A stretch of DNA of 56,027 nt from a virus: IMG/VR virus record IMGVR_UViG_3300010316_000010, positions 1-56,027 of that record; one strand, 5' to 3'. This document shows, in pieces, positions 8,819 through 56,027 of this stretch. How positions within the stretch are numbered: position 1 is the stretch's first letter; every line of letters starts with the position of its first letter. A model generated the notes under the pieces. That model had not been told where the DNA came from and searched no databases. It was given only the letters and a program-made list of their open reading frames with translations. Made by a program: the position numbers and the translations under genes.

Positions 8819-9044
8819 TAATGTCTTCGTAGACTTCGTCTACAGTCTGCGGGTGCGCTGTGGTGAGTTTCTTGTGAACTATGCTTCGCACCTTGTCAGA
8901 CAGAGTTGAAACTTTTCTCACATGTTCTCTGTCCAGAGTACACCCCCTGCATCTACAGTTATCGAAGTATCTGTGTTCGTTACCGTAGATGCAGGTAACT
9001 GTCTCATCTTCTTTTTCTGCCGCCCAGCCTCTACTACTTCCCAT
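8799..9044 (-). CDS. Small Cys-rich protein, 81 aa
   Basis: CIYGNEHRYFDNCRCRGC contains four cysteines plus histidine within 18 residues, suggesting a zinc-binding knuckle. I chose the ATG at 9044, nine bases after the polymerase stop and preceded by AGCAACATAGGAGCGAAA, the early leader. The C-terminus is helical. Function unknown; the position after the polymerase suggests a replication accessory. Confidence 0.55.
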   Translation of the reverse strand: MGSSRGWAAEKEDETVTCIYGNEHRYFDNCRCRGCTLDREHVRKVSTLSDKVRSIVHKKLTTAHPQTVDEVYEDIIKKLSD

Positions 9045-9052
9045 TTTCGCTC

Positions 9053-11041
9053 CTATGTTGCTATCTGTGCCATCGCTGTGTTGAACTTGGCATCGTAACC
9101 ATCTTTCTCTTTGGCTGTCCCCCAAGTTTTCCCGAACTCAGCGTCGACGACGACGGGTACGCTCAGCTTGACTGACTCCACCATGCAAGCCTGAGCAATC
9201 TCAGCCTGACGCTCTGTACTAAAACTGAAATCTAACTCGTCGTGCATCTGTAGTAGGGGCAGAAGACCTTCTTTCCAACACATACGCATAGAAAGTTTCG
9301 TCTGCCGCGCGGCCGAGCCTTGGATCAACCAGTTGAGCGACTTGTGTGTGAACGCTCTGCGGAGGTTGCCGGACCAAGGGTGATCAGGGTCGGACATCCG
9401 CCGCATAGCTTCCTCGCGGTCACACGGCCCCAGAGGTTTTCCGCTGCGGGCAGCTTCCTTGTAGTCTACCCATCGCGGTTCCCAGCGCTCGAAGCGAACC
9501 CGCGCACCGTCGATGAGCCGGATGTACCCCCGCCTCCCCGCGACTGACTGCACGAACTCGGAGAGGCGCTTCACGAAAGGTGCCTCCTCATCGTACTGCT
9601 CCATCGTAGCCTTCGCCTCCTCCAACGTCATGCCCGTCATGAGTGCGAACTTCGGCACACCAGCCCCGAAGGCTTTCGCGAAGTTTACATCTTTGGCGCG
9701 GCGGCGGGGGAGACCTGTCAGTTCTGCTACGAGACTGTGAAAGTCTGTACGAGGATCGTCGTTGTAGCGAGCCACAGGCTTGTCCGCACCCTGCACTCCA
9801 CAGGCGTGTGCGAAGTGTACGATCAGGCGATACTCCTGCTGCGAGTAGTCCAGCGCACCCCAGACCTCACCGTGCTCCGGCATGAACAGGCCGCGAATAG
9901 AGTCAGCGATCTCGGGGTCGCGCGACGGCATCTGCTGTAGCGGGGGATCACTGTAGGCGAAGCGGCTGGTCTTCGTGCCGCCGCGATCGTTCTTGAACTG
10001 GTGGATCTCGGCGTGGATGCGACCGCGGTGAGCGTAGTCGATGAGATACCCCTGCACGAACTTGTCCCCAGCGTCGTGCATCTTGTGGGTCCGCGCTACG
10101 AGTTGCGGGAGCCAGTGGTCGATCTTGTTCATCCAGTCAGCCTGGAAGGACGGCGCACCTTTCTCCGTGTAAGGATACACGATATTCTCGTCTTTGAACC
10201 ACTTTTCGAGGAACTTGGGCGACTTGACGTCTTTCATTGTGACGTCGCGCCCCATGCAGAGTTTACGACTCAACTCAGCCAGAGCATCGTCGCGTTTGGT
10301 CAGCAGGTCGTCGCGGATTTCTGGTGCGCGGCGCGTGTCGAACCGAACACCCCTCCGACGCATAGCCATCACCATCGGTATCAGGTCGCGCTCCAGCCCG
10401 TAACTCTCAGTAATATTCTGCGCCTGTATCTGGGGCCAGAACTTCTCGTACAGTTTCAGTGTACTGACGGCGTCCTGCTCAGCATACGGGGCCACGAACC
10501 GAGCAGGCAGTTTCCAGAGCTCACCTTTCGGGTTGTAGCCGAAGGCTCGGGCAGCATCTTGCAACATACTCTCATCTTTGCCCTCGATCCCCTGCCACTT
10601 GCAGAGGCTGTCCAGATTGTAGGTGAGGCGCTGCTCGTCGAGTGAGTAGGCCATAGCAAGAGTATCGTGGAACTTCTCGGGTGTAGGTATATCCCACTCT
10701 GCACTGATCCAGCCGAGGTCGTACGCGGCGTTCTGGAATACGATCCACTCGTCGGCTCCCATGTGGTCCCGCAGCCACCGACCCACATTCTCGTGCGGGA
10801 AGTTGTCAGTCTCGGGGTGGGCGACCGGGACGTAGACACTCCCCCGCTTGGAGGCCATGCTGACCCCCACGATTTTCCCTGCACCGTACACCCATCCGGG
10901 ACCTCGGCTGTTTGCGAGACCATCGTCGCGCGTCTCGGTATCGATCGCTATGACGCCAGACCCGCGAAGGTCTGGCAATTCTTTCGGCACTACCCAGTCA
11001 CTCTTGGGCAGGAGGAAGTCCATGGGGAGTTGATCAGCCAT
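9053..11041 (-). CDS. Family A DNA polymerase with proofreading domain, 662 aa
   Basis: Replicative polymerase. The exonuclease domain has DTE (about residues 34-36), NAAYDL (about 104-109) and YAEQDAVST (about 186-194), so all acidic residues are present. Polymerase motif A is DYSQQEYRL (about 398-406), motif B RRRAKDVNFAKAFGAG (about 446-461) and motif C HDE (about 600-602). There is no 5' nuclease domain. Motif B has AKAFG where most family A enzymes have GxxYG, a Tyr-to-Phe change at the position linked to ddNTP discrimination and fidelity. The ATG at 11041 overlaps the upstream stop by one base. Sits with nucleotide-pool genes, as in phages with altered bases. Confidence 0.93.
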   Translation of the reverse strand: MADQLPMDFLLPKSDWVVPKELPDLRGSGVIAIDTETRDDGLANSRGPGWVYGAGKIVGVSMASKRGSVYVPVAHPETDNFPHENVGRWLRDHMGADEWIVFQNAAYDLGWISAEWDIPTPEKFHDTLAMAYSLDEQRLTYNLDSLCKWQGIEGKDESMLQDAARAFGYNPKGELWKLPARFVAPYAEQDAVSTLKLYEKFWPQIQAQNITESYGLERDLIPMVMAMRRRGVRFDTRRAPEIRDDLLTKRDDALAELSRKLCMGRDVTMKDVKSPKFLEKWFKDENIVYPYTEKGAPSFQADWMNKIDHWLPQLVARTHKMHDAGDKFVQGYLIDYAHRGRIHAEIHQFKNDRGGTKTSRFAYSDPPLQQMPSRDPEIADSIRGLFMPEHGEVWGALDYSQQEYRLIVHFAHACGVQGADKPVARYNDDPRTDFHSLVAELTGLPRRRAKDVNFAKAFGAGVPKFALMTGMTLEEAKATMEQYDEEAPFVKRLSEFVQSVAGRRGYIRLIDGARVRFERWEPRWVDYKEAARSGKPLGPCDREEAMRRMSDPDHPWSGNLRRAFTHKSLNWLIQGSAARQTKLSMRMCWKEGLLPLLQMHDELDFSFSTERQAEIAQACMVESVKLSVPVVVDAEFGKTWGTAKEKDGYDAKFNTAMAQIAT

Positions 11042-11415
11042 CAGATATCTATCATCGGGACGTAGCCGCGACCAGTCGGACACTCTACCTTGGCTTGACG
11101 CGGGCCGCGAGAATAGGTTCGCATTGCTGCGGTCTCAGTATCCTCAGCGGTGAGGCGTTCGCGCACACGGTCAGCACTCAGTTTGGAGTATCCGGCCATG
11201 TCGTCCCAGTGGTCAGCGATGTCAGGGTTGCCAGTGACCACGCGCCCCATCTTGTGGGCGATCATGTGCAGTGTCTCTTTCTGATCGTCTGCCAGCATGT
11301 TCCAGTTGCGGTGACTCTGTAGAACACGCATCAGCTCCTGCGTACAGTTCGCGTGTTCGGTGTAGTCTCCGTGGGTCTTGGCCCGCTCTTGTAGGATTTT
11401 GTCGATGTCGGTCAT
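11041..11415 (-). CDS. MazZ/DUF6378-like protein, 124 aa
   Basis: Helical protein with ERAKTHGDY at the start and QKETLHMIAHKMGRVVTG...DHWDDMAGY in the middle. This is the DUF6378 pattern, a MazG-like group that includes the dGTP/dATP diphosphohydrolase MazZ of diaminopurine phages. MazG-type enzymes cleave dNTPs to dNMPs and PPi. Here it lies between an HD nucleotidase and PolA, the same company as in Z-genome phages, but no purZ is seen. Likely trims a canonical dNTP from the pool. SD AAAAAGGA precedes the ATG. Confidence 0.7.
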   Translation of the reverse strand: MTDIDKILQERAKTHGDYTEHANCTQELMRVLQSHRNWNMLADDQKETLHMIAHKMGRVVTGNPDIADHWDDMAGYSKLSADRVRERLTAEDTETAAMRTYSRGPRQAKVECPTGRGYVPMIDI

Positions 11416-11918
11416 CTTATGGTTCCTTTTTCTACGAACTTGGCGACTGCAAGGTTTTCATGCGGTGTCTCACACATCTGGAGCGCGGCCTCGAGTGTGC
11501 GATCGATGATCGGTTGAGCCAAGGTGTTCCCCTTGGCCCGCTCTTCTACGCCGTACTCCCACATCTCGAGCAGATCGCATATCTTGAGATAGCGGTGCTC
11601 GTCGACGGTGGTGCTGTCCTCGGGGTCGACACCATCCAGGAGTTTGCTGCGGTGAATTGCTTCCACGCGATCATACGCAGCCTTCATGTCAGAGTTCTCG
11701 CGCTTGACTGGAAACGGTGCATCACCTGTCTTCACCTCGCCGACGTCGTGGTAGATTACAGCACGAATTGCGTTCAGACTAGGTAGCCCGAATATCTGGT
11801 CGTAGATGCGCAGAACGTGCCACGTGTGCTCGGCGACTGTCTGCTCACGAATGACGGGCCACGTGTGATAACGCTTGACGAGTCCCGCGTACCGGAGGCT
11901 ATCTGTTGGGATATTCAT
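11412..11918 (-). CDS. HD-domain 5'-deoxynucleotidase (YfbR/DatZ-like), 168 aa
   Basis: Metal-dependent HD phosphohydrolase. H31 (AEHTWHVL), H57-D58 (YHDVGEVKTGD) and D115 (KICDLLE) supply the HD metal site, and TGDAPFPVKR matches the substrate loop of YfbR-type 5'-deoxynucleotidases. DatZ, the dATP triphosphohydrolase of diaminopurine phages, has the same fold. It probably hydrolyses dNMP or dNTP to bias the pool. The ATG at 11918 follows GGAGAAAG; ATGA overlaps couple it to both neighbours. Confidence 0.8.
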   Translation of the reverse strand: MNIPTDSLRYAGLVKRYHTWPVIREQTVAEHTWHVLRIYDQIFGLPSLNAIRAVIYHDVGEVKTGDAPFPVKRENSDMKAAYDRVEAIHRSKLLDGVDPEDSTTVDEHRYLKICDLLEMWEYGVEERAKGNTLAQPIIDRTLEAALQMCETPHENLAVAKFVEKGTIR

Positions 11919-12109
11919 ACGATTTCTTTCTCCACTGCGAGCCACTCTGGAATCCAGAGTGTGTAGATACCGTCGTGACCACTCTCCTCAAGCTGGCACT
12001 GGCTCTTCGGAACCCAGACAGCCTCTTCAGGTATGCTGTCTGTCACGAGCCACTCCGAACTTGTCTCGTGCAGAAGTTGCACACTGACGTCGATAACCTC
12101 ATCCATCAC
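11915..12109 (-). CDS. Hypothetical protein, 64 aa
   Basis: Small acidic protein (MMDEVIDVSVQLLHE ... GIYTLWIPEWLAVEKEIV), unrecognised, coupled by ATGA overlaps between the thymidylate-synthase homologue and the HD enzyme. Confidence 0.55.
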   Translation of the reverse strand: MMDEVIDVSVQLLHETSSEWLVTDSIPEEAVWVPKSQCQLEESGHDGIYTLWIPEWLAVEKEIV

Positions 12110-13065: not shown

Positions 13066-13379
13066 AGTGTTCTTCTCCTGTTTTCTGACCCGTGCGGGTC
13101 GTTCTTCTTGGTTGAGTAGGCGTACATCAGCTCAGCTATCTTCTCTGCTTTCTTCATCACAGCCTCTATCTCCTGCAAGTCGATCCCGGTGCTTTCACGA
13201 AGATGGATCTTCTGTACAGCGATCAGGATAGCTGTGTTGTAGACACACAGATCATGCGTCTGGCTGACGCCGTTCAGCATGTCGATCGCCCACGTGCAGG
13301 CTGAGTAGACGCGTGTCTTCAGTTGTGGGACTTCACAGTCGCACAGCGGATGCACCGAGTTTGGTGAGTCATCAGCCAT
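13059..13379 (-). CDS. Hypothetical protein, 106 aa
   Basis: Helical protein, Cys in the first part (PLCDCEVP), then two long helices (EAVMKKAEKIAELMYAYS). Not recognised. Coupled by overlaps to the glycosyltransferase upstream and the TS homologue downstream, so probably part of the same process. Confidence 0.6.
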   Translation of the reverse strand: MADDSPNSVHPLCDCEVPQLKTRVYSACTWAIDMLNGVSQTHDLCVYNTAILIAVQKIHLRESTGIDLQEIEAVMKKAEKIAELMYAYSTKKNDPHGSENRRRTLC

Positions 13380-14190
13380 TCTCCAGAGCTTTCTTCCAGT
13401 AGACAGTCACCTCAGTGCGCTCGCCAGCCATGCGCCCCGTCTTGTTGACTTTGATGCGCGTATTGACGTAGGCGGGGTGAAGTGCTACCAGAGCTTCGGC
13501 CGTCACCTTGAGTTGGTCCTGATCGCGCACACCCTCGAGGCCTCCTGGACTGTCGGCTGAGCGTTGGTCCTGCGCCCAGTGGTAGGTGACGATATTCTTG
13601 TGCCCCATACGCAGAAGTTGGAGGGTCACGTCCAAGTCCTCCCGCCCCTCGACCTCGGTCCGATACCGCACAGCGCCCGACTTGAAGTGGTCGAGCCTGA
13701 ACCCGACGCAGCGGATGCAGCGCGTCGCCTCCGCTACAGCGTGAAGACCTTTCCTGTGGTTGTTACCGTCACGCGTACTGACGCCGACGTGGTGAGTTTC
13801 GTCGAGGGTCCTCCACATCCAGTCGAACATCGCGCGGTCGTCGTTCGGCAGGGAAGGTTTCAGACGGTAGTCCCAGCCGTTCTCGTCAGGTTGAAAACCA
13901 CCGCGCGAAGCAAACTTCAAGTCATCGTCGACCATGATGATTTTGTCGTAGCCCCTGCTCACGGCATTGTTCACAATCCACTGGCGCGTCGTGGCGATAC
14001 CGCTGACAGCGCCATCTGGAATGATCCACAGGTTGTCTCTGCTGCGACCGAGCTTCGTGATCAAGGCTTGGTAGAGCGGCGCTTCATCTTGCCGAACGAC
14101 CAGTGTCAGCGGTAGATCGCGCGGAAGATTGGTGAGTGAAGTCGCCTCACCGTTAGAGTGTCTGCGGTACGTCGGGACGACTATAAGCAT
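13372..14190 (-). CDS. TET-associated-type glycosyltransferase (TAGT-like), 272 aa
   Basis: GT-A fold glycosyltransferase. VVPTYRR starts the first strand, IIMVDDDLKF (about 84-93) is the DxD metal/nucleotide-sugar site, HVGVSTRDGNN (134-144) follows, and EDLDVTLQLLR (184-194) matches the catalytic E-D-x-D segment of the TET/JBP-associated glycosyltransferases, proposed to glycosylate hydroxymethylated pyrimidines in phage DNA. It ends YWKKAL, also typical of that group. No TET/JBP dioxygenase is seen here, so the acceptor may come from the TS homologue. Overlaps the sugar-nucleotide epimerase by ten bases, suggesting that enzyme supplies its donor. Confidence 0.75.
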   Translation of the reverse strand: MLIVVPTYRRHSNGEATSLTNLPRDLPLTLVVRQDEAPLYQALITKLGRSRDNLWIIPDGAVSGIATTRQWIVNNAVSRGYDKIIMVDDDLKFASRGGFQPDENGWDYRLKPSLPNDDRAMFDWMWRTLDETHHVGVSTRDGNNHRKGLHAVAEATRCIRCVGFRLDHFKSGAVRYRTEVEGREDLDVTLQLLRMGHKNIVTYHWAQDQRSADSPGGLEGVRDQDQLKVTAEALVALHPAYVNTRIKVNKTGRMAGERTEVTVYWKKALENG

Positions 14191-15089
14191 TTCTTGATAC
14201 CCTCCTCAAGGTGTGTATAATTCGGAAGAACACCAATAATCTTGGTGAGCTTTTCCAGTTCGGGCTTGCGCCAGACGGGGTCATGCGGGCGAGCGGGGGT
14301 GTGTCTGATATCTACACCTCCTGCAAGTTTGGATACCAAGTTCGCCGCCTGACTGATTGTGACCTGTTCGTCGCAGCCGCAGTTTACCACTGTGAAACCC
14401 TCGGGCGCAAACTCGCGCAGCCGCCAGAAGATCTCAATCAGGTCGTCCACGTAGCAGAACGATCTGTTCTGAAGCCCGCTGCCGTGAACAGTCAGAGCCT
14501 CCCCCGCCTTCGCCTGCTTCACGAACGTGTTGATCACACGTCCGTCGTCCGGCATGTCGGGTCCGTAGGTGTTGAAGATGCGGAGCGCCACGACCCGCGC
14601 CTCCGGCTTGTCCTGCGCTATCTGCCACCCCAAGCCCTCGCTGAGGCGCTTGCACTCGTCGTAGACGCTGCGGACCGTGTCTGTGCGGACGCAGCCCGCG
14701 TTGCCCTCCTCCATCGGAGCGAGTGTCTTGCCGTAGGCCTCGCTGGATGTGGCGATGTAGAGTGTACCGTCCTCGTGCAGAAGATCTTTGAAGTACCTGA
14801 ACGGTGTGATGTTCGCCTGCAAGATGCGCTCCCAGTCGCGGAAGTCGTCGGGGCTGGCGGGGGAGGCAAAGCTCCAGATCTCGTCGTACTTGTTCATGAC
14901 CAGAAACTTGATCTTGCTCGCGTCGGACCCGAAGACGTCGACCCGCGGATCGTTCATGAACGGTTTCCTGGAACCTGTACTCATGTCGTCGACGATGTCG
15001 ATCTGTAGTTCAGGTCCACCCTCCGCCAAGTGGCGGCGAGCGATGGCTGAGCCCAAGAACCCAGCACCTCCGATAATCAGTACTCTCAC
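14181..15089 (-). CDS. NAD-dependent epimerase/dehydratase, UDP-xylose-synthase-like, 302 aa
   Basis: Short-chain dehydrogenase-type sugar-nucleotide enzyme. NAD loop GGAGFLG is at residues 7-13; the active-site segment SVYDECKRLSE gives Y-x3-K; then RIFNTYGPDMPDDGRVI and QNRSFCYVDDLI. YDExKRxxE, NTYGPxMxxxDGRV and RSFCYVDDL are hallmark stretches of UDP-glucuronate decarboxylase (UXS), which makes UDP-xylose. The start is a GTG at 15089 in a GTGA overlap; a 45-residue Arg-rich extension upstream is spurious. Probably supplies the donor sugar to the adjacent glycosyltransferase. Confidence 0.82.
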   Translation of the reverse strand: MRVLIIGGAGFLGSAIARRHLAEGGPELQIDIVDDMSTGSRKPFMNDPRVDVFGSDASKIKFLVMNKYDEIWSFASPASPDDFRDWERILQANITPFRYFKDLLHEDGTLYIATSSEAYGKTLAPMEEGNAGCVRTDTVRSVYDECKRLSEGLGWQIAQDKPEARVVALRIFNTYGPDMPDDGRVINTFVKQAKAGEALTVHGSGLQNRSFCYVDDLIEIFWRLREFAPEGFTVVNCGCDEQVTISQAANLVSKLAGGVDIRHTPARPHDPVWRKPELEKLTKIIGVLPNYTHLEEGIKKCL

Positions 15090-15511
15090 GTCGTTTCCTC
15101 TACAGTGGGCCAGAAGTATTCTAGCTTCGGTTCTTCGGTCCAGTCGAACTGACTGTACCACTCGGGGTCTTTGTGGAGCAGAGCGGCGCGGTGCGAAGAG
15201 TGCAGGCGCTCGTCGCCGAGCCACGGCGGCATCTCGATGTCCAAGAAGTACGGCTTGGAGTGATCAAGCATCAGTGGCATGTTGTTCTCGTAGCCGCGAC
15301 GAATCCACTCTTTGATGCAGCAGTCGGTGTACATCATCAGGGCTGTCACGTGCTGCGACCACATCTTCGTGCATGGGTGATTAGACCACCCTGAGCCTTC
15401 CTGAATAGCGGTCTGCATCTGTCTACCCTCCACGCGCTGTTTGCCGAGGCGGGCGCGGTCGAGAACCTGCGCTGACGCCACGAAGTTAGGATATGGTAAG
15501 AAACTCTGCAT
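15086..15511 (-). CDS. MSMEG_6728-type (pyrimidine-dimer glycosylase-like) protein, 141 aa
   Basis: The N-terminus MQSFLPYPNFVASAQVLDRARLGKQRVEG... carries the FLPYPxFxxSAxxLDxxRLGKQRVE signature, followed by GWSNHPCTKMW, PPWLGDERLHSSHRAALLHKDP and YFWP. This family is annotated as pyrimidine dimer DNA glycosylase/endonuclease V-like; activity is poorly documented. A plausible role is repair, or reading of modified bases. First gene of the hypermodification operon: leader AAACAACTTAGGGGTTGAG and a TATAAA box at 15541-15546. Confidence 0.75.
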   Translation of the reverse strand: MQSFLPYPNFVASAQVLDRARLGKQRVEGRQMQTAIQEGSGWSNHPCTKMWSQHVTALMMYTDCCIKEWIRRGYENNMPLMLDHSKPYFLDIEMPPWLGDERLHSSHRAALLHKDPEWYSQFDWTEEPKLEYFWPTVEETT

Positions 15512-17868: not shown

Positions 17869-18318
17869 CTAAAGCGCCTCCTGAGGACCGCGCTTCTGAT
17901 TCTGGTACTTGCCGTCGTAGGGTATGTCAGTCGGATCGTCCAACATGTGGAACAGAATCTGGGCGATCGGCGTACCCTCCGGCAAGATTATCTCACCCTC
18001 TCCGTGGTTCGTGAGCTCGAGAGTCAAGAACCCTGACCATCCCGGCTCGATCACGGTGTTCTGGACCGCGAGTCCGCGCCGCGCCCACGTGGACTTGTCA
18101 TGCACGATACCGACGATCCAGTTCGGCATGTCGAATTTCTCGAGAGTAGATGCGAGTGCGAACGCACCCCTACCGAGGGTTATCTCTTGATCGAGACGCA
18201 CGTCGTATCCGCAGGCGCTGAGGCCGAACGTGGTGTTCGTAGCCTCGTGCCGTGTGCGCTCTACGAACGGCTCGACCGGCCTGACCTGACGCAGTGTTCG
18301 CGAAGACAGTACAGTCAT
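17869..18318 (-). CDS. dcd: dCTP deaminase / dUTPase-family protein, 149 aa
   Basis: Trimeric dUTPase-fold enzyme producing dUTP or dUMP for the thymidylate branch. Conserved segments: GYDVRL (37-42), VHDKSTWARRG (72-82), EPGWSGFLTLE (91-101, with the catalytic Glu at 101) and GTPIAQILF. The sequence is shorter than E. coli Dcd (about 190) but ends with the usual KYQNQKRGPQ. Feeds dUMP to the TS homologue. The ATG at 18318 overlaps the upstream stop (TGATG); a 70-residue extension is spurious. Confidence 0.88.
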   Translation of the reverse strand: MTVLSSRTLRQVRPVEPFVERTRHEATNTTFGLSACGYDVRLDQEITLGRGAFALASTLEKFDMPNWIVGIVHDKSTWARRGLAVQNTVIEPGWSGFLTLELTNHGEGEIILPEGTPIAQILFHMLDDPTDIPYDGKYQNQKRGPQEAL

Positions 18319-18614
18319 CAGAACACACCTCTCTCTAGTAGTTCGATGAACTTCTCCGGCGATCCGCGCTTGATCTTTCCGGTCTTCGCAGACTGCCACT
18401 TGTTCGCGCTCGGCCAGTACTGAGCGACGACCTTGTCGTTGCGAATACGCTTCACGGGCCAGTGAGCGGGAGTGGAGTTGACCAGATAGTATCCTCCCCG
18501 CTCCGCCGCGTATGCGAATTCGCCCCATCGATCCTCGGCTTTCTCCAGAGTCGCGCGACGTTTTTCTTTGATCTCGCGTTTCTGCTGCTGCCAGTACTCG
18601 ATCATCTCACCCAT
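18318..18614 (-). CDS. Hypothetical basic protein, 98 aa
   Basis: Starts MGEMIEYWQQQKREIKEKRR with a basic coiled helix, then beta-rich VVAQYWPSANKWQS...GKIKRGSPEKFIELL, which resembles short domains in other phage small proteins. Function unknown. Coupled to Dcd downstream and the pyrophosphorylase homologue upstream. Confidence 0.65.
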   Translation of the reverse strand: MGEMIEYWQQQKREIKEKRRATLEKAEDRWGEFAYAAERGGYYLVNSTPAHWPVKRIRNDKVVAQYWPSANKWQSAKTGKIKRGSPEKFIELLERGVF

Positions 18615-19479
18615 GTCTGTAGATCCCCCGAGGTTTGCCTTGTCCAGTCTTCACGCGCAGATACTTGTCGACCTCGCAGAGTGTGTGCTCCACCTCGCGC
18701 ATCTCGAGGATGGGCCAGTCGATCGGCCAGTTGCGGGGGTCTCTGCTCGCAGCCATGATCGCCCGCATCTCGTCGATGAACAGGTGCTTCTTCTGTTTAC
18801 TCGTCAGGTTGCGACCGAAGATGCGGTTCAGGCCGCGCATGGCTCCAGGACCAGGATTCGCCCACGTGAGGATGTCTGGCGCATTGTAGAGCAAATCAGT
18901 CCAGCGCAGGTCGGTGACGAACTCGTAGCTGGTGAAGTCGGCGATGTGTGGGAACTTGGTGAACGCGGACCACGTAGCTTCTAGCGTTCCTGCCTGCTCG
19001 ATCGCGCGGAACACGTCGGCCCTGCCGTCCCAGACCCACTGGATCATCTGTAGAACACCAGTCAGCTTGTCCATGCCGTTCGGGCTGTTGATGATATAGG
19101 CTCCGGTGCAGTACGGCCCCCTCCCGCAGAAAGAAAGGATCGAAGGCTTCATGACGCCAGAGTCGCCCGTATGTAGGAACTCCTCGAAGGCTGTCCGGTT
19201 CCCGAAGCTGGTCTGGTTGAAGATAGCTTCACCAGTGATATTTCGGTTGAATAACCGGAAGACCACGGTCGCCATCAGGGTTGCGACGTTGTCGCCCTCG
19301 TAGCGATTACGTGCATTCGCAGCGAACCAGAGCGTGACGTTGTCCAGTTCGCGATAGACGTTCGTGAACCTGTAGCGGTGAAGAATGGGGTCGTCGGTCC
19401 ACGGGGAGGCACTCCCGGCTTTTCTCCGAAGATAGATCTCGTGGCGCTCGCGAGCGAAGGCGAAAAATTCGTCGTACAT
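18607..19479 (-). CDS. Alpha-glutamyl/putrescinyl thymine pyrophosphorylase-like protein, 290 aa
   Basis: The family (aGPT-PPlase) was defined in phages with hypermodified thymine, where it is proposed to displace pyrophosphate from 5-(pyrophosphoryloxymethyl)uracil in DNA with an amine or amino acid. The signature here is ERHEIYLRR (about 11-19), PWTDDPIL (26-33) and RFTNVYRELD (37-46), all strongly conserved, followed by a helical body and FCGRGPYCTGAYI. Length fits. The start is ATG at 19479 with leader AGCATATGGGAGATAACC; a longer frame would cross the terminator at 19496-19535. It is the clearest sign of a DNA base hypermodification pathway in this phage. The in-DNA hydroxymethyluracil kinase expected before it is not recognised. 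Confidence 0.8.
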   Translation of the reverse strand: MYDEFFAFARERHEIYLRRKAGSASPWTDDPILHRYRFTNVYRELDNVTLWFAANARNRYEGDNVATLMATVVFRLFNRNITGEAIFNQTSFGNRTAFEEFLHTGDSGVMKPSILSFCGRGPYCTGAYIINSPNGMDKLTGVLQMIQWVWDGRADVFRAIEQAGTLEATWSAFTKFPHIADFTSYEFVTDLRWTDLLYNAPDILTWANPGPGAMRGLNRIFGRNLTSKQKKHLFIDEMRAIMAASRDPRNWPIDWPILEMREVEHTLCEVDKYLRVKTGQGKPRGIYRHG

Positions 19480-49407: not shown

Positions 49408-50199
49408 TTAGTTCTGGGCCTCAGAGGCCAGTTTCCGACCTTCGGCGGTCTTGATGACCTCCGCAAAGCCCTGATGGAAGGTCACGCCGTTTTTGTCTGC
49501 GTGTTCCTGCGCCATCTTGTTGAGACGAGCGGTGGGAGTACCCTCGTCGATGTGATCAGCACCTTTCTCGATGAAAGCCTTGCCGAGAGCAGCGTCTGCT
49601 TCTTTCAGGGACTTCATCAGTGCTTCGCGAGCGTCCTTGTCCTGAACAGCCTCAGCGGCCTTCAGGATAGCGGCCTTCGCAACATGGGTTCCACCCAGAT
49701 GCTCGAAAGTCTCGCCAGCACGCTTCTCGAGTTGCTCCTGCTCGCGCTCAGCCTTCATCTTGTTGAGCTCGACGTTCTGGGCCTCGATCTGCTTGAGAAT
49801 CGGTGCAGGAACGGCAGACTTCTCGATCTTCTCGCCGTTGAACTCGATGTACTCGGGGTCGGCCGCTTTCTTGAGCGACATCTTGCCCTCGTCATCTTCT
49901 TCGACGGACATACCTTCTTTCTCGACCATCGACTTGAGATTCTTGTACTTCTCGTCGTTGTTCATTGCTGCTTTCTGGAGTTCAGAGATTTGGTTCTCCT
50001 GCTCCTCGAGCTTCTTCGCGAGTTCTTTGGCGTCCACAGGCAGCCCTCCTTCTGATATCTCGCTGTGATTGTGGTGACTCTCGTCACCGGCTCTCTTCCA
50101 GAGTACGACACGCGAGTCTGGGTTCGCTGGGTCGTCAACGTGGCTGATCTCATTGATCACGAGATTGCGCACGATCTTCTTACCTTTATTCTGCGGCAT
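49408..50199 (-). CDS. Scaffold-like capsid assembly protein, 263 aa
   Basis: N-terminal RNLVINEISHVDDPANPDSR is the motif at the end of many phage prohead proteases (VNEVSxVDxPANP), then a long helical coiled coil (DAKELAKKLEEQENQISELQ ... KMKAEREQEQLEKRAGETFE), typical of a scaffold that is removed at maturation. The gene overlaps the protease polyprotein by 14 bases. The ATG at 50199 follows GGAGACCTTC. Confidence 0.75.
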   Translation of the reverse strand: MPQNKGKKIVRNLVINEISHVDDPANPDSRVVLWKRAGDESHHNHSEISEGGLPVDAKELAKKLEEQENQISELQKAAMNNDEKYKNLKSMVEKEGMSVEEDDEGKMSLKKAADPEYIEFNGEKIEKSAVPAPILKQIEAQNVELNKMKAEREQEQLEKRAGETFEHLGGTHVAKAAILKAAEAVQDKDAREALMKSLKEADAALGKAFIEKGADHIDEGTPTARLNKMAQEHADKNGVTFHQGFAEVIKTAEGRKLASEAQN

Positions 50200-51892
50200 G
50201 AAGGTCTCCAATTCCGCCGATCGAGAGCGCGGGAAGTTCCCCGCTCTTAATCATGTCCCACGTGGTGTCGTCGTGTACCTTGAAGCCGACGATCCAGCCC
50301 TCTTTCTCGGACGACACACCCAGCATGGACGCGAGTTCTTTGGAGAGGGGAAGCGAGTGAACGACGTCACTGCGCTTTGTCCCGAAGTGCATCGTCTTGC
50401 CGACGCGTGTCGTGAGCATGAACTCTGTCGACGCCTTGGTCAGCTCGCTCATCGGGATGTGATCGCCGTGAAGATCGAAGACTGGCTCTCCGTTCACCGT
50501 AGCGACTGAGGCCCAGCCCCAGACGATACGCTGCTCATCGTCCATTTTGACGATCTGCACACCTGAGATATGATCAACATTCTTCTTCATGACAGTTGCC
50601 ATGATAGCTGATACCACGCGCTCAAGCAAGTCCCCATTTTCATCCTCGGAATCATTTTCCTCGTCTTCGTCCAACTCGAACGCCTCGAGATAGTCCTCGT
50701 GATCCTCTCCGGGCATGTAGACGGCCTGACCATCGACCTCGTAGACGTGAATCTCGCCACCGAGACCGAGTTCTGCACTGCGGGCGCGAGCTTCCTCCGG
50801 CATGGTGAAGCTGTCTTCCTTCACCATTCGCTTCTCCACCTTCGAGGCGACTCCACGCGCCCAGTCTACGCCCGTGGTTCCGCCCCAGAGAAGCCAAGCG
50901 ACGTGACCAGCATCCTTCCACGGTTCGTCCCTGTACTTCGGGTCGACCTCGGAGTTCTTGCGGTGACGGTTGAACTGCGCCATCCGCTTGACAGTGCTGA
51001 GGCTCAGCTTCTCCCCGCCTGCGAGCTGACTCGCCCGAGTCCAGCCGACGCGGGTGCCGCCCTTGACTTCGTCGCCGTACTTCTCGCGCCACGTGATAGC
51101 CTTCTTGGCGTTGTTTCGCGCAGAAGCGGGGGGAGTGTAGCCGTCAACTTTCTTCATCGGCTTCTTGCGACCAGTGGTGGGTACGTGGACATCGTCATTC
51201 GTCGGTGCGGTCTTCTCTACGACACCACTCTTCCAGTCAGGGTCAAGTGGCTGATAGACCATCGGCCCGAGCACGATGTCGCCCTCGAACGGGGGGATGG
51301 TCTGCTCGCCAGCCTGATACGAGAGCGTGATGTGAGGTTGATACGTGTCCCAGTCCCACGACGCACCCATCTCACGGTGCTCCAGATGCTCGCGCGAGAG
51401 GCGCTCGTTCTCGATCTTCAGTACGAGAGCTTCACCTTCTTTGCCGAGCCGCGCGATTGCCCTCGAGCCACCGCGGACCACAACCTTGTCCGCCCACACC
51501 CCAGCAAGACCACCGTAGGGTTCGGGGTAGTTGTCTGGAATAGACGCATACGCTCTGCGACTGTACACGACAGTCACGTGCATGTCCTCAGGGTCCAGAG
51601 TCGTCTCCAGACCGTTCGACTTGGCCCAGTCGACGATCTCCTCAGCGTTCAGGACAGGGCGATAGGCGTACATCGGCACTGCGCCTCGCGCTTTCTTGAT
51701 CCACTTGCCTTCGTCACTCTTCTTGTAGCCAGCGTCCTCGATCGCGGCCCAAGCTGACGCGAAACTGACAGATTCAGACTTACCCGCGTCTAACTGGCTA
51801 TTCACGACGCGCATGAACATAGAGCGTCCTGCATCGCTCGGTATCGCGTTCCTAACTGACTGCGGAAGCTCCGATATGTTCTCGTAAGGCAT
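50186..51892 (-). CDS. Multidomain head protein: ChaB + 2H phosphoesterase-like + conserved region + XkdF-type protease, 568 aa
   Basis: Residues 1-67 are a ChaB domain (MPYENISELPQSVRNAIPSD ... EGKWIKKA). Residues about 75-225 have H-V-T (105-107) and H-I-T (187-189), the two H-x-T motifs of 2H/2'-5' RNA ligase-like phosphoesterases. Residues about 248-355 (DGYTPPASARNNAKKAITWR ... DPKYRDEPWKDAGHVAWLLW) form a conserved module also seen in other phage head proteins. An acidic linker follows (DEDEENDSEDENGD), then the XkdF-like serine-protease domain (QIVKMDDEQRIVWGWASVAT, DLHGDHIPMSEL, GWIVGFKVHD) to 568. Likely processes the prohead. The N-terminal domains are unusual passengers. Confidence 0.75.
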   Translation of the reverse strand: MPYENISELPQSVRNAIPSDAGRSMFMRVVNSQLDAGKSESVSFASAWAAIEDAGYKKSDEGKWIKKARGAVPMYAYRPVLNAEEIVDWAKSNGLETTLDPEDMHVTVVYSRRAYASIPDNYPEPYGGLAGVWADKVVVRGGSRAIARLGKEGEALVLKIENERLSREHLEHREMGASWDWDTYQPHITLSYQAGEQTIPPFEGDIVLGPMVYQPLDPDWKSGVVEKTAPTNDDVHVPTTGRKKPMKKVDGYTPPASARNNAKKAITWREKYGDEVKGGTRVGWTRASQLAGGEKLSLSTVKRMAQFNRHRKNSEVDPKYRDEPWKDAGHVAWLLWGGTTGVDWARGVASKVEKRMVKEDSFTMPEEARARSAELGLGGEIHVYEVDGQAVYMPGEDHEDYLEAFELDEDEENDSEDENGDLLERVVSAIMATVMKKNVDHISGVQIVKMDDEQRIVWGWASVATVNGEPVFDLHGDHIPMSELTKASTEFMLTTRVGKTMHFGTKRSDVVHSLPLSKELASMLGVSSEKEGWIVGFKVHDDTTWDMIKSGELPALSIGGIGDLHAAE

Positions 51893-55906: not shown

Positions 55907-55940
55907 TTGTATAGTGCAAGCCCTAAAATAAACTAATTAG

Positions 55941-56027
55941 CAGGGCAGGGCCACAGCTGCACCACAGGGCAGGGCAGGGCCACAGCTGCACCACAGGGCA
56001 GGGCAGGGCCACAGCTGCACCACAGGG
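55941..56027. repeat. Three exact tandem copies of a 29-bp unit at the right edge
   Basis: Units 55941-55969, 55970-55998 and 55999-56027 are identical (begin CAGGGCAGGGCCACAGCTGC). The array ends exactly with the window, the behaviour expected when assembly stops inside a longer array. No spacers, so not CRISPR. Confidence 0.85.

Follow-up and report, generated by a model that had tools for sequence, protein, structure and literature searches.

The Pseudomonas phages M6/YuA and PaMx11 (Mesyanzhinovviridae) carry DNA hypermodification cassettes in which a thymidylate synthase (TS) homologue, a protein of the Pfam family PF18723 and an HD nucleotidase are found next to a PolA-type DNA polymerase, together with a P-loop kinase, an amino acid:DNA transferase (ADDT) and tailoring enzymes. 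In hypermodifying phages, the P-loop kinase activates 5-hydroxymethyldeoxyuridine (5-hmdU) for amino-acid transfer. Sphaerotilus phage SN1 is M6-like, and the DNA of M6 contains 5-(2-aminoethyl)dU (PMC6449724, PMC9476957).

Two protein clades of these cassettes share the name alpha-glutamyl/putrescinyl-thymine pyrophosphorylase (aGPT-PPlase), and the single cassette of SN1 holds both of them. The name reportedly originates from Iyer et al. 2013. Clade 1 corresponds to PF18723 (HMUDK_hel) and comprises SN1_020, M6 gp055 and PaMx11 gp50, while clade 2 corresponds to PF18724, the ADDT family, and comprises SN1_024 and PaMx11 gp46. Structures have been solved for clade 2 (8z2m/8z2n, which are PaMx11 gp46 and are annotated as Glycinyltransferase, and 25qc); for the clade-1 protein, no direct functional evidence was found in the accessible literature. 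The installation of amine or amino-acid adducts is the role of clade 2, and the name aGPT-PPlase, in use for clade 1 since 2013, is misleading. In the Bacillus phages SP10 and Goe26, the same helical domain forms the C-terminal half of the 5-hmdU DNA kinase (F8WQ30, WCS68057.1), where it is naturally fused behind a P-loop kinase (PF18748), a fusion that probably accounts for the Pfam name HMUDK_hel.

Other phages combine related genes with glycosyltransferases. In pelagiphages of the HTVC023P type, the association of TS, aG/PT-PPlase1, a 5'-deoxynucleotidase and a beta-glucosyl-HMC-alpha-glucosyltransferase near PolA has already been noted (PMC9599517); the accessible part of that paper reports neither an exclusivity of kinase and glycosyltransferase nor sugar-nucleotide enzymes, and treats the genes as general thymidine hypermodification. 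Brevibacterium phage LuckyBarnes possesses a TS-GT-GT-PF18723 block with adjacent glycosyltransferases of the TAGT family and has no kinase or ADDT in its whole 50.8-kb genome. Pentosylated pyrimidines are described for T4-like RB69 (arabinosyl-hmC) and for Thanatos (deoxypentose-C), and a UDP-xylose route was proposed by the RB69 authors (PMC6024577, PMC12838424); in both phages, however, the modified base is cytosine and not uracil, the glycosyltransferases are different ones, and PF18723 has not been reported.

The window analysed here, 56,027 bases long, spans an entire IMG/VR contig of an uncultured phage and encodes terminase, portal, tape-measure, tail-fibre and replication genes. A DNA search of its first 25 kb against 50,697 phage records gave no near match, and the phage therefore has no close isolate among them. 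The genes of its modification cassette are listed in Table 1. Outside the cassette, the replication region encodes an archaeo-eukaryotic primase of the TOTE conflict-system type (PF22548; 21851-23377, minus strand), and the head region encodes a 568-aa protein (50186-51892, minus strand) in which PHROG matches to 'RNA ligase' (residues 83-221) and to 'DNA methyltransferase'/head protease (residues 419-566) point to an unusual fusion. At its right end (55940-56027), the contig breaks off in a repeat in which a 29-bp unit (GCAGGGCAGGGCCACAGCTGCACCACAGG) is present in three perfect copies, possibly an assembly artefact or a genome-end repeat.

Table 1. Coordinates of the modification cassette and its adjoining genes in the 56,027-base window.
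Feature	Position	Strand	Evidence
DNA polymerase I, M6/PaMx11 type	9053..11083	-	33% identity to PaMx11 gp55, E 5e-96
DUF6378 protein	11041..11415	-	PF19905, 28.0 bits (cut-off 27.1)
HD-domain 5'-deoxynucleotidase (YfbR-like)	11412..11945	-	PF12917, E 1.4e-13
TS homologue, dUMP-hydroxymethylase type, 319 aa	12106..13065	-	PF00303, E 4e-21; PHROG 5131, E 7e-96
TAGT-family glycosyltransferase, 272 aa, DDD and ED motifs	13372..14190	-	PF20691, E 3.8e-16
UDP-glucuronate decarboxylase (UDP-xylose synthase, UXS)-like SDR enzyme	14181..15089	-	PDB 4gll/2b69, E 1.5e-34
Pyrimidine-dimer DNA glycosylase-family protein	15086..15511	-	PF03013, E 3.6e-23
dCTP deaminase (Dcd)	17869..18318	-	TIGR02274, 102.2 bits (cut-off 92.8)
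PF18723 (HMUDK_hel / aGPT-PPlase clade 1) protein, 290 aa	18607..19479	-	Pfam, E 4.1e-48

An earlier note had placed an aGPT-PPlase-like gene at the last of these positions, and the gene is indeed there: the open reading frame starts with an ATG at 19479 and stops at 18609-18607, while the plus strand is broken by stop codons. All three motifs cited in support were located in the protein (ERHEIYLRR at residues 11-19, PWTDDPIL at 26-33 and RFTNVYRELD at 37-46). Residues 1-279 match PF18723 (164.6 bits; gathering score, 25), and the protein also matches PHROG 2396 (E 2e-55). Its identity to the M6/PaMx11-type proteins is 44% for PaMx11 gp50 and 34% for SN1_020; its identity to the LuckyBarnes protein is 24% over the alignment (28% or less). 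The family assignment thus holds for the clade-1 lineage, but the adduct-installing role that came with it is outdated and belongs to PF18724, which SN1_024 and PaMx11 gp46 match in Pfam and the window's protein does not. The protein lacks a Walker A motif or P-loop, and it is not a member of the 5-hmdU DNA kinase family PF18748.

The AlphaFold2 model of the protein shows a single, confident (pLDDT 96) and nearly all-helical fold. Among viral models (BFVD), its structural matches are the PF18723 members of phiRSL1, PhiW-14 (a helical-domain protein) and SP10 (the 5-hmdU DNA kinase fusion), with a TM-score to the query of 0.69-0.80, followed by ADDT-domain proteins (prob 1.00, TM 0.50-0.56). 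The relationship with the ADDTs is distant at the profile level as well (E 0.002, probability 14%, collinear across 117 columns), and a C-terminal E-[VI]-E-x-x-LC motif is common to both families. No relative was found when the PF18723 profile was compared with PDB sequences. The best match of the fold in the PDB was the 8-oxoguanine DNA glycosylase MjOgg (prob 0.72, E 0.52), with OGG1, AlkA and AGOG scoring lower, a weak match that is only suggestive of a likeness to DNA glycosylases.

The M6/PaMx11-type pathway is represented in the window in part. A tblastn search with the PaMx11 and SN1 cassettes found TS, the HD nucleotidase, the DNA polymerase and PF18723, and found no ADDT, P-loop kinase, FAD enzyme, acetyltransferase, radical SAM (rSAM) enzyme, PLP enzyme or Nmad5 in the window. 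A profile search of the whole 56-kb contig, which is possibly incomplete, with alignments of 35 kinases and 21 ADDTs found neither, while the positive controls M6, PaMx11 and the kinase locus L025 were all detected; Walker-A motifs across the window were confined to the terminase and helicase genes and to frames that are non-kinase or have the motif by chance. The putative dUMP hydroxymethylase of that pathway is thus present, and the 5-hmdU kinase and the ADDT were not found anywhere on the contig. It is consequently very improbable that the protein itself couples amines or amino acids to pyrophosphorylated 5-hmdU, giving a thymine of the putrescinyl or glutamyl type, as the old family name and the distant homology to ADDTs would have it: the contig offers neither a kinase for the activated base nor tailoring enzymes, and phages of proven amino-acid chemistry perform the transfer with PF18724 (PaMx11 gp46, PDB 8z2m) while also having PF18723. 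The absence of ADDT and kinase ruled out amino-acid or amine transfer as the main reading.

Several enzymes of the cassette are predicted to act on the nucleotide pool. The TS homologue, 41% identical to PaMx11 gp51 and 41.7% to SN1_017, retains the catalytic Cys (DVPCN). At the position occupied by Asn in uracil-specific TS and by Asp in the CMP hydroxymethylase MilA, it has Asn, a residue present in 208/208 of the cassette TS homologues having the motif. Because the uracil-type Asn is kept, dUMP is favoured over dCMP as the substrate, and the place of the protein in the M6-type family leads us to infer that it hydroxymethylates rather than methylates. The HD protein is a homologue of that of the M6 group (35% identity to SN1_016; PDB YfbR E 1e-9, DatZ 8e-5), and the DNA polymerase I gene adjoins the cassette as in M6/PaMx11 phages. 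The pool and sugar genes that the earlier note had listed around the clade-1 gene (TS homologue, Dcd, HD protein, glycosyltransferase and sugar-nucleotide enzyme) were recovered, except that the MazZ-like assignment of the gene at 11041-11415 was not supported, as it has a DUF6378 match alone and matches no MazZ or other PDB structure.

The glycosyltransferase scores 60.1 bits against the PF20691 cut-off of 27.5, matches PHROG 842 (E 2e-32), and its DDD motif is invariant in the alignment. With TS, the clade-1 protein, the nucleotidase and this glycosyltransferase near PolA, the window has all four functions noted in the HTVC023P-type pelagiphages. Since the TAGT family is named for TET-linked 5-hmC glycosylation and PHROG 842 for the T4-type HMC glucosyltransferase, one could suppose that the TS homologue makes hydroxymethyl-dCMP, that the glycosyltransferase modifies 5-hmC and that PF18723 acts separately. 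We consider this improbable in view of the uracil-type Asn of the TS and its similarity (41% identity) to the TS of the M6 group, whose phages hypermodify thymine, and also of Dcd, which turns dCTP into dUTP. A search for PF12851 (TET/JBP) in 25 TAGT-type records gave no match, and neither did its positive control.

The neighbouring SDR enzyme distinguishes the window from both M6/PaMx11 and LuckyBarnes; the former have a kinase, an ADDT and tailoring enzymes where the window has the TAGT glycosyltransferase and this UXS-like enzyme, and the latter has two glycosyltransferases, a longer TS and no UXS-like gene. Its best solved relatives are structures of UDP-glucuronic acid decarboxylase 1 (4gll/2b69), to which it is roughly 30% identical and in alignment with which the UXS motifs SSExYG, YDExKR and GSGxQxR are kept. 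NCBIfam names for the enzyme (heptose epimerase etc.) all scored far below cut-off and were dropped for UXS on the PDB evidence. The enzyme is accordingly annotated as UDP-xylose synthase-like, and decarboxylation of UDP-GlcA is predicted. Its open reading frame overlaps that of the glycosyltransferase by 10 nt. Of the loci compared, only three have a UXS-like gene, namely the window, L023 and L100, and in each of them this gene overlaps the frame of the glycosyltransferase; the glycosyltransferases of L023 and L100 are the closest to that of the window (53-56% identity, vs at most 36% for the other enzymes compared). This restriction to three loci with the most similar glycosyltransferases, and the overlap with their frame, suggest UDP-xylose or a related pentose as the donor. 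SDR enzymes related to UXS make other sugars as well. Directly before the sugar-nucleotide gene, with a GTGA overlap, lies the gene of the T4 endonuclease V family (15086-15511), which is also found in the cassettes of L004 (14050-14472) and L005.

The partners of PF18723 were surveyed in IMG/VR loci fetched with PF18723 alignments and one glycosyltransferase alignment, in which all open reading frames were scanned with gene-class HMMs built for this study. The glycosyltransferase-based fetch enriches TAGT loci, yet it cannot create exclusivity; flanks were 8-10 kb, so that a distant second partner could lie beyond them, except in the records checked whole. The 252 PF18723 loci (some contigs being represented more than once) comprised 103 with TAGT, 41 with a methyltransferase, 34 with a kinase, 28 with kinase and ADDT, one with an ADDT and no detected kinase (L009), and 45 others, and in none of the 252 did two of kinase, TAGT and methyltransferase occur together. 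After reduction to 101 non-redundant loci (70%), the numbers were 36 for kinase, 34 for TAGT, eight for SAM methyltransferase and 23 for other, again with no locus combining kinase and TAGT (Fisher p 5e-9, a value that ignores phylogeny). Where whole records were searched, no kinase or ADDT was found in 41 TAGT records and no TAGT in 34 comparison records, nearly all of them kinase-bearing, with the positive controls detected in both cases.

The TS homologue is almost always present together with PF18723 in the surveyed loci, and the usual gene orders are kinase-PF18723-TS (53 loci), methyltransferase-PF18723-TS (41) and PF18723-GT-TS (87 of the 103 TAGT loci). The partner overlaps or abuts PF18723 in 41/41 cases for the methyltransferase, 47/61 for the kinase, 62/105 for TAGT and 0/29 for ADDT. 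Surface glycans are possible substrates of phage glycosyltransferases and TS is absent from three TAGT loci (L148, L151 and L152), which would fit an enzyme whose substrate is a surface polymer of the host or the virion, the DNA containing plain 5-hmdU alone or no modification. We regard this as most improbable, given that a search with the glycosyltransferase alone recovered PF18723 and TS in 74 of 80 IMG/VR loci (and kinase or ADDT in none of the 80), and given the predominance of the PF18723-GT-TS order, in which the median gap from GT to TS is -11.5 nt.

Some surveyed loci deserve mention in their own right. The SAM methyltransferase frame overlaps PF18723 and is followed by TS in L036, L038, L074 and 38 other marine loci, a candidate cassette for methylated 5-hydroxymethyluracil. 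Many of the 'other' loci have transferase-like neighbours, namely FkbM-type methyltransferase, cytidylyltransferase plus cupin, PIG-L deacetylase and GT-B-like candidates. FkbM-like neighbours occur in L039, L047, L049, L053, L042, L044 and L231 (PF05050 shown for L039); the neighbours in L091, L242, L191 and L195 were judged GT-B-like by eye and have no Pfam match. A PIG-L deacetylase lies beside PF18723 in L215 (596-1144, 2028-2411) and L247, with an APS-kinase-like P-loop protein also present in L215, possibly as a writer set. In L020, two divergent PF18723 proteins (8905-9903 and 14024-14866) flank one TAGT glycosyltransferase, the second of them on a very long branch.

On a maximum-likelihood tree of the 101 non-redundant proteins, parsimony on the best tree required 27 changes for the four partner labels, and 14 for kinase vs TAGT, or 11 when the five longest rows were left out. 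All labels are nonetheless clustered on the tree (0/500 shuffles as low for any of them). The supported clade that contains the window comprises 27 rows, 14 with TAGT, 11 with kinase and two others, and partner swaps therefore occurred close to the window. A strict sign test limited to fully supported branches gave p 0.125 from only 7 pairs, too few to reach significance. We found no report of the kinase/glycosyltransferase/methyltransferase exclusivity, of the repeated swaps or of the UXS association in the accessible literature, though Lee 2018 and 2022 may contain parts of it.

Despite these exchanges, at least 12 residues of PF18723 are near-invariant (R12, D30, R43, D46, F182, D190, D202, GPG, G216, C268, E269 and K272; 96-100% per partner class), and R12, D30, R43, D46, GPG, C268-E269 and K272 are present in the window's protein. 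As these residues are unchanged across the partner classes, the module probably does one and the same job with any partner. Such a job could be an enzymatic step of its own on 5-hmdU in DNA, for example activation or the transfer of an additional group, with the partner acting on the product. The conserved Arg, Asp, Cys-Glu and Lys residues would fit this, as would the fold and C-terminal motif common with the ADDTs, themselves enzymes; one product feeding kinase, glycosyltransferase and methyltransferase is, however, chemically harder to imagine than 5-hmdU as the common acceptor, and the purified M6 kinase is reported, as unpublished work, to phosphorylate 5-hmdU in phage DNA (PMC6449724). 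A catalytic step of PF18723 is thus unlikely, although far from negligible.

The explanation that we prefer, and which we hold to be somewhat better than an even chance, is that 5-hmdU is made, incorporated and then glycosylated, possibly with a pentose, PF18723 being a helper that presents 5-hmdU to the partner transferase. The TS homologue would make 5-hydroxymethyl-dUMP, with Dcd supplying dUTP and the HD nucleotidase clearing the pool, and 5-hydroxymethyl-dU would be polymerised into DNA in the place of thymidine. The UDP-glucuronate-decarboxylase-like enzyme would probably provide the sugar donor, a pentose such as xylose being the leading guess. PF18723 would descend from a base-flipping DNA-glycosylase-like fold, find 5-hmdU and flip it out, and the TAGT glycosyltransferase would place the sugar on the exposed hydroxymethyl group. 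The same module would serve the P-loop kinase in M6/PaMx11-type phages and apparently the methyltransferase in marine phages. Partner exclusivity, partner switching and the unchanged polar residues argue that PF18723 is probably a shared, DNA-glycosylase-like module for presenting 5-hmdU to interchangeable writers. Its physical partnership with the glycosyltransferase is something we infer, since the latter lies more than 250 nt away in 43 of 105 TAGT loci and about 4.4 kb away in the window.

Judged from its gene content, the phage very probably carries a sugar-bearing thymine in place of thymine. The modified-base genome of the earlier note is upheld to this extent, while its chemistry is less open than was then proposed, as the gene set points to glycosylation; glycosylation rather than amination is the best reading, and the sugar is possibly a pentose. 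The full claim, that PF18723 is a universal 5-hydroxymethyluracil-presenting module for kinase, glycosyltransferase, methyltransferase and other writers and that this phage carries xylosyl- or other pentosyl-5-hydroxymethyluracil, is put forward tentatively, as a possibility that falls short of being probable. To our knowledge, such a pentosylated base is known from no organism.

With a constant, conserved core and a partner swapped at least 11 times by parsimony, the role of the clade-1 protein becomes simply testable. If the proposed role is true, thymine hypermodification would be a modular platform. A further prediction is that abundant environmental phages carry a class of glycosylated thymine, by which the restriction, the CRISPR sensitivity and the sequencing of their DNA would be altered.
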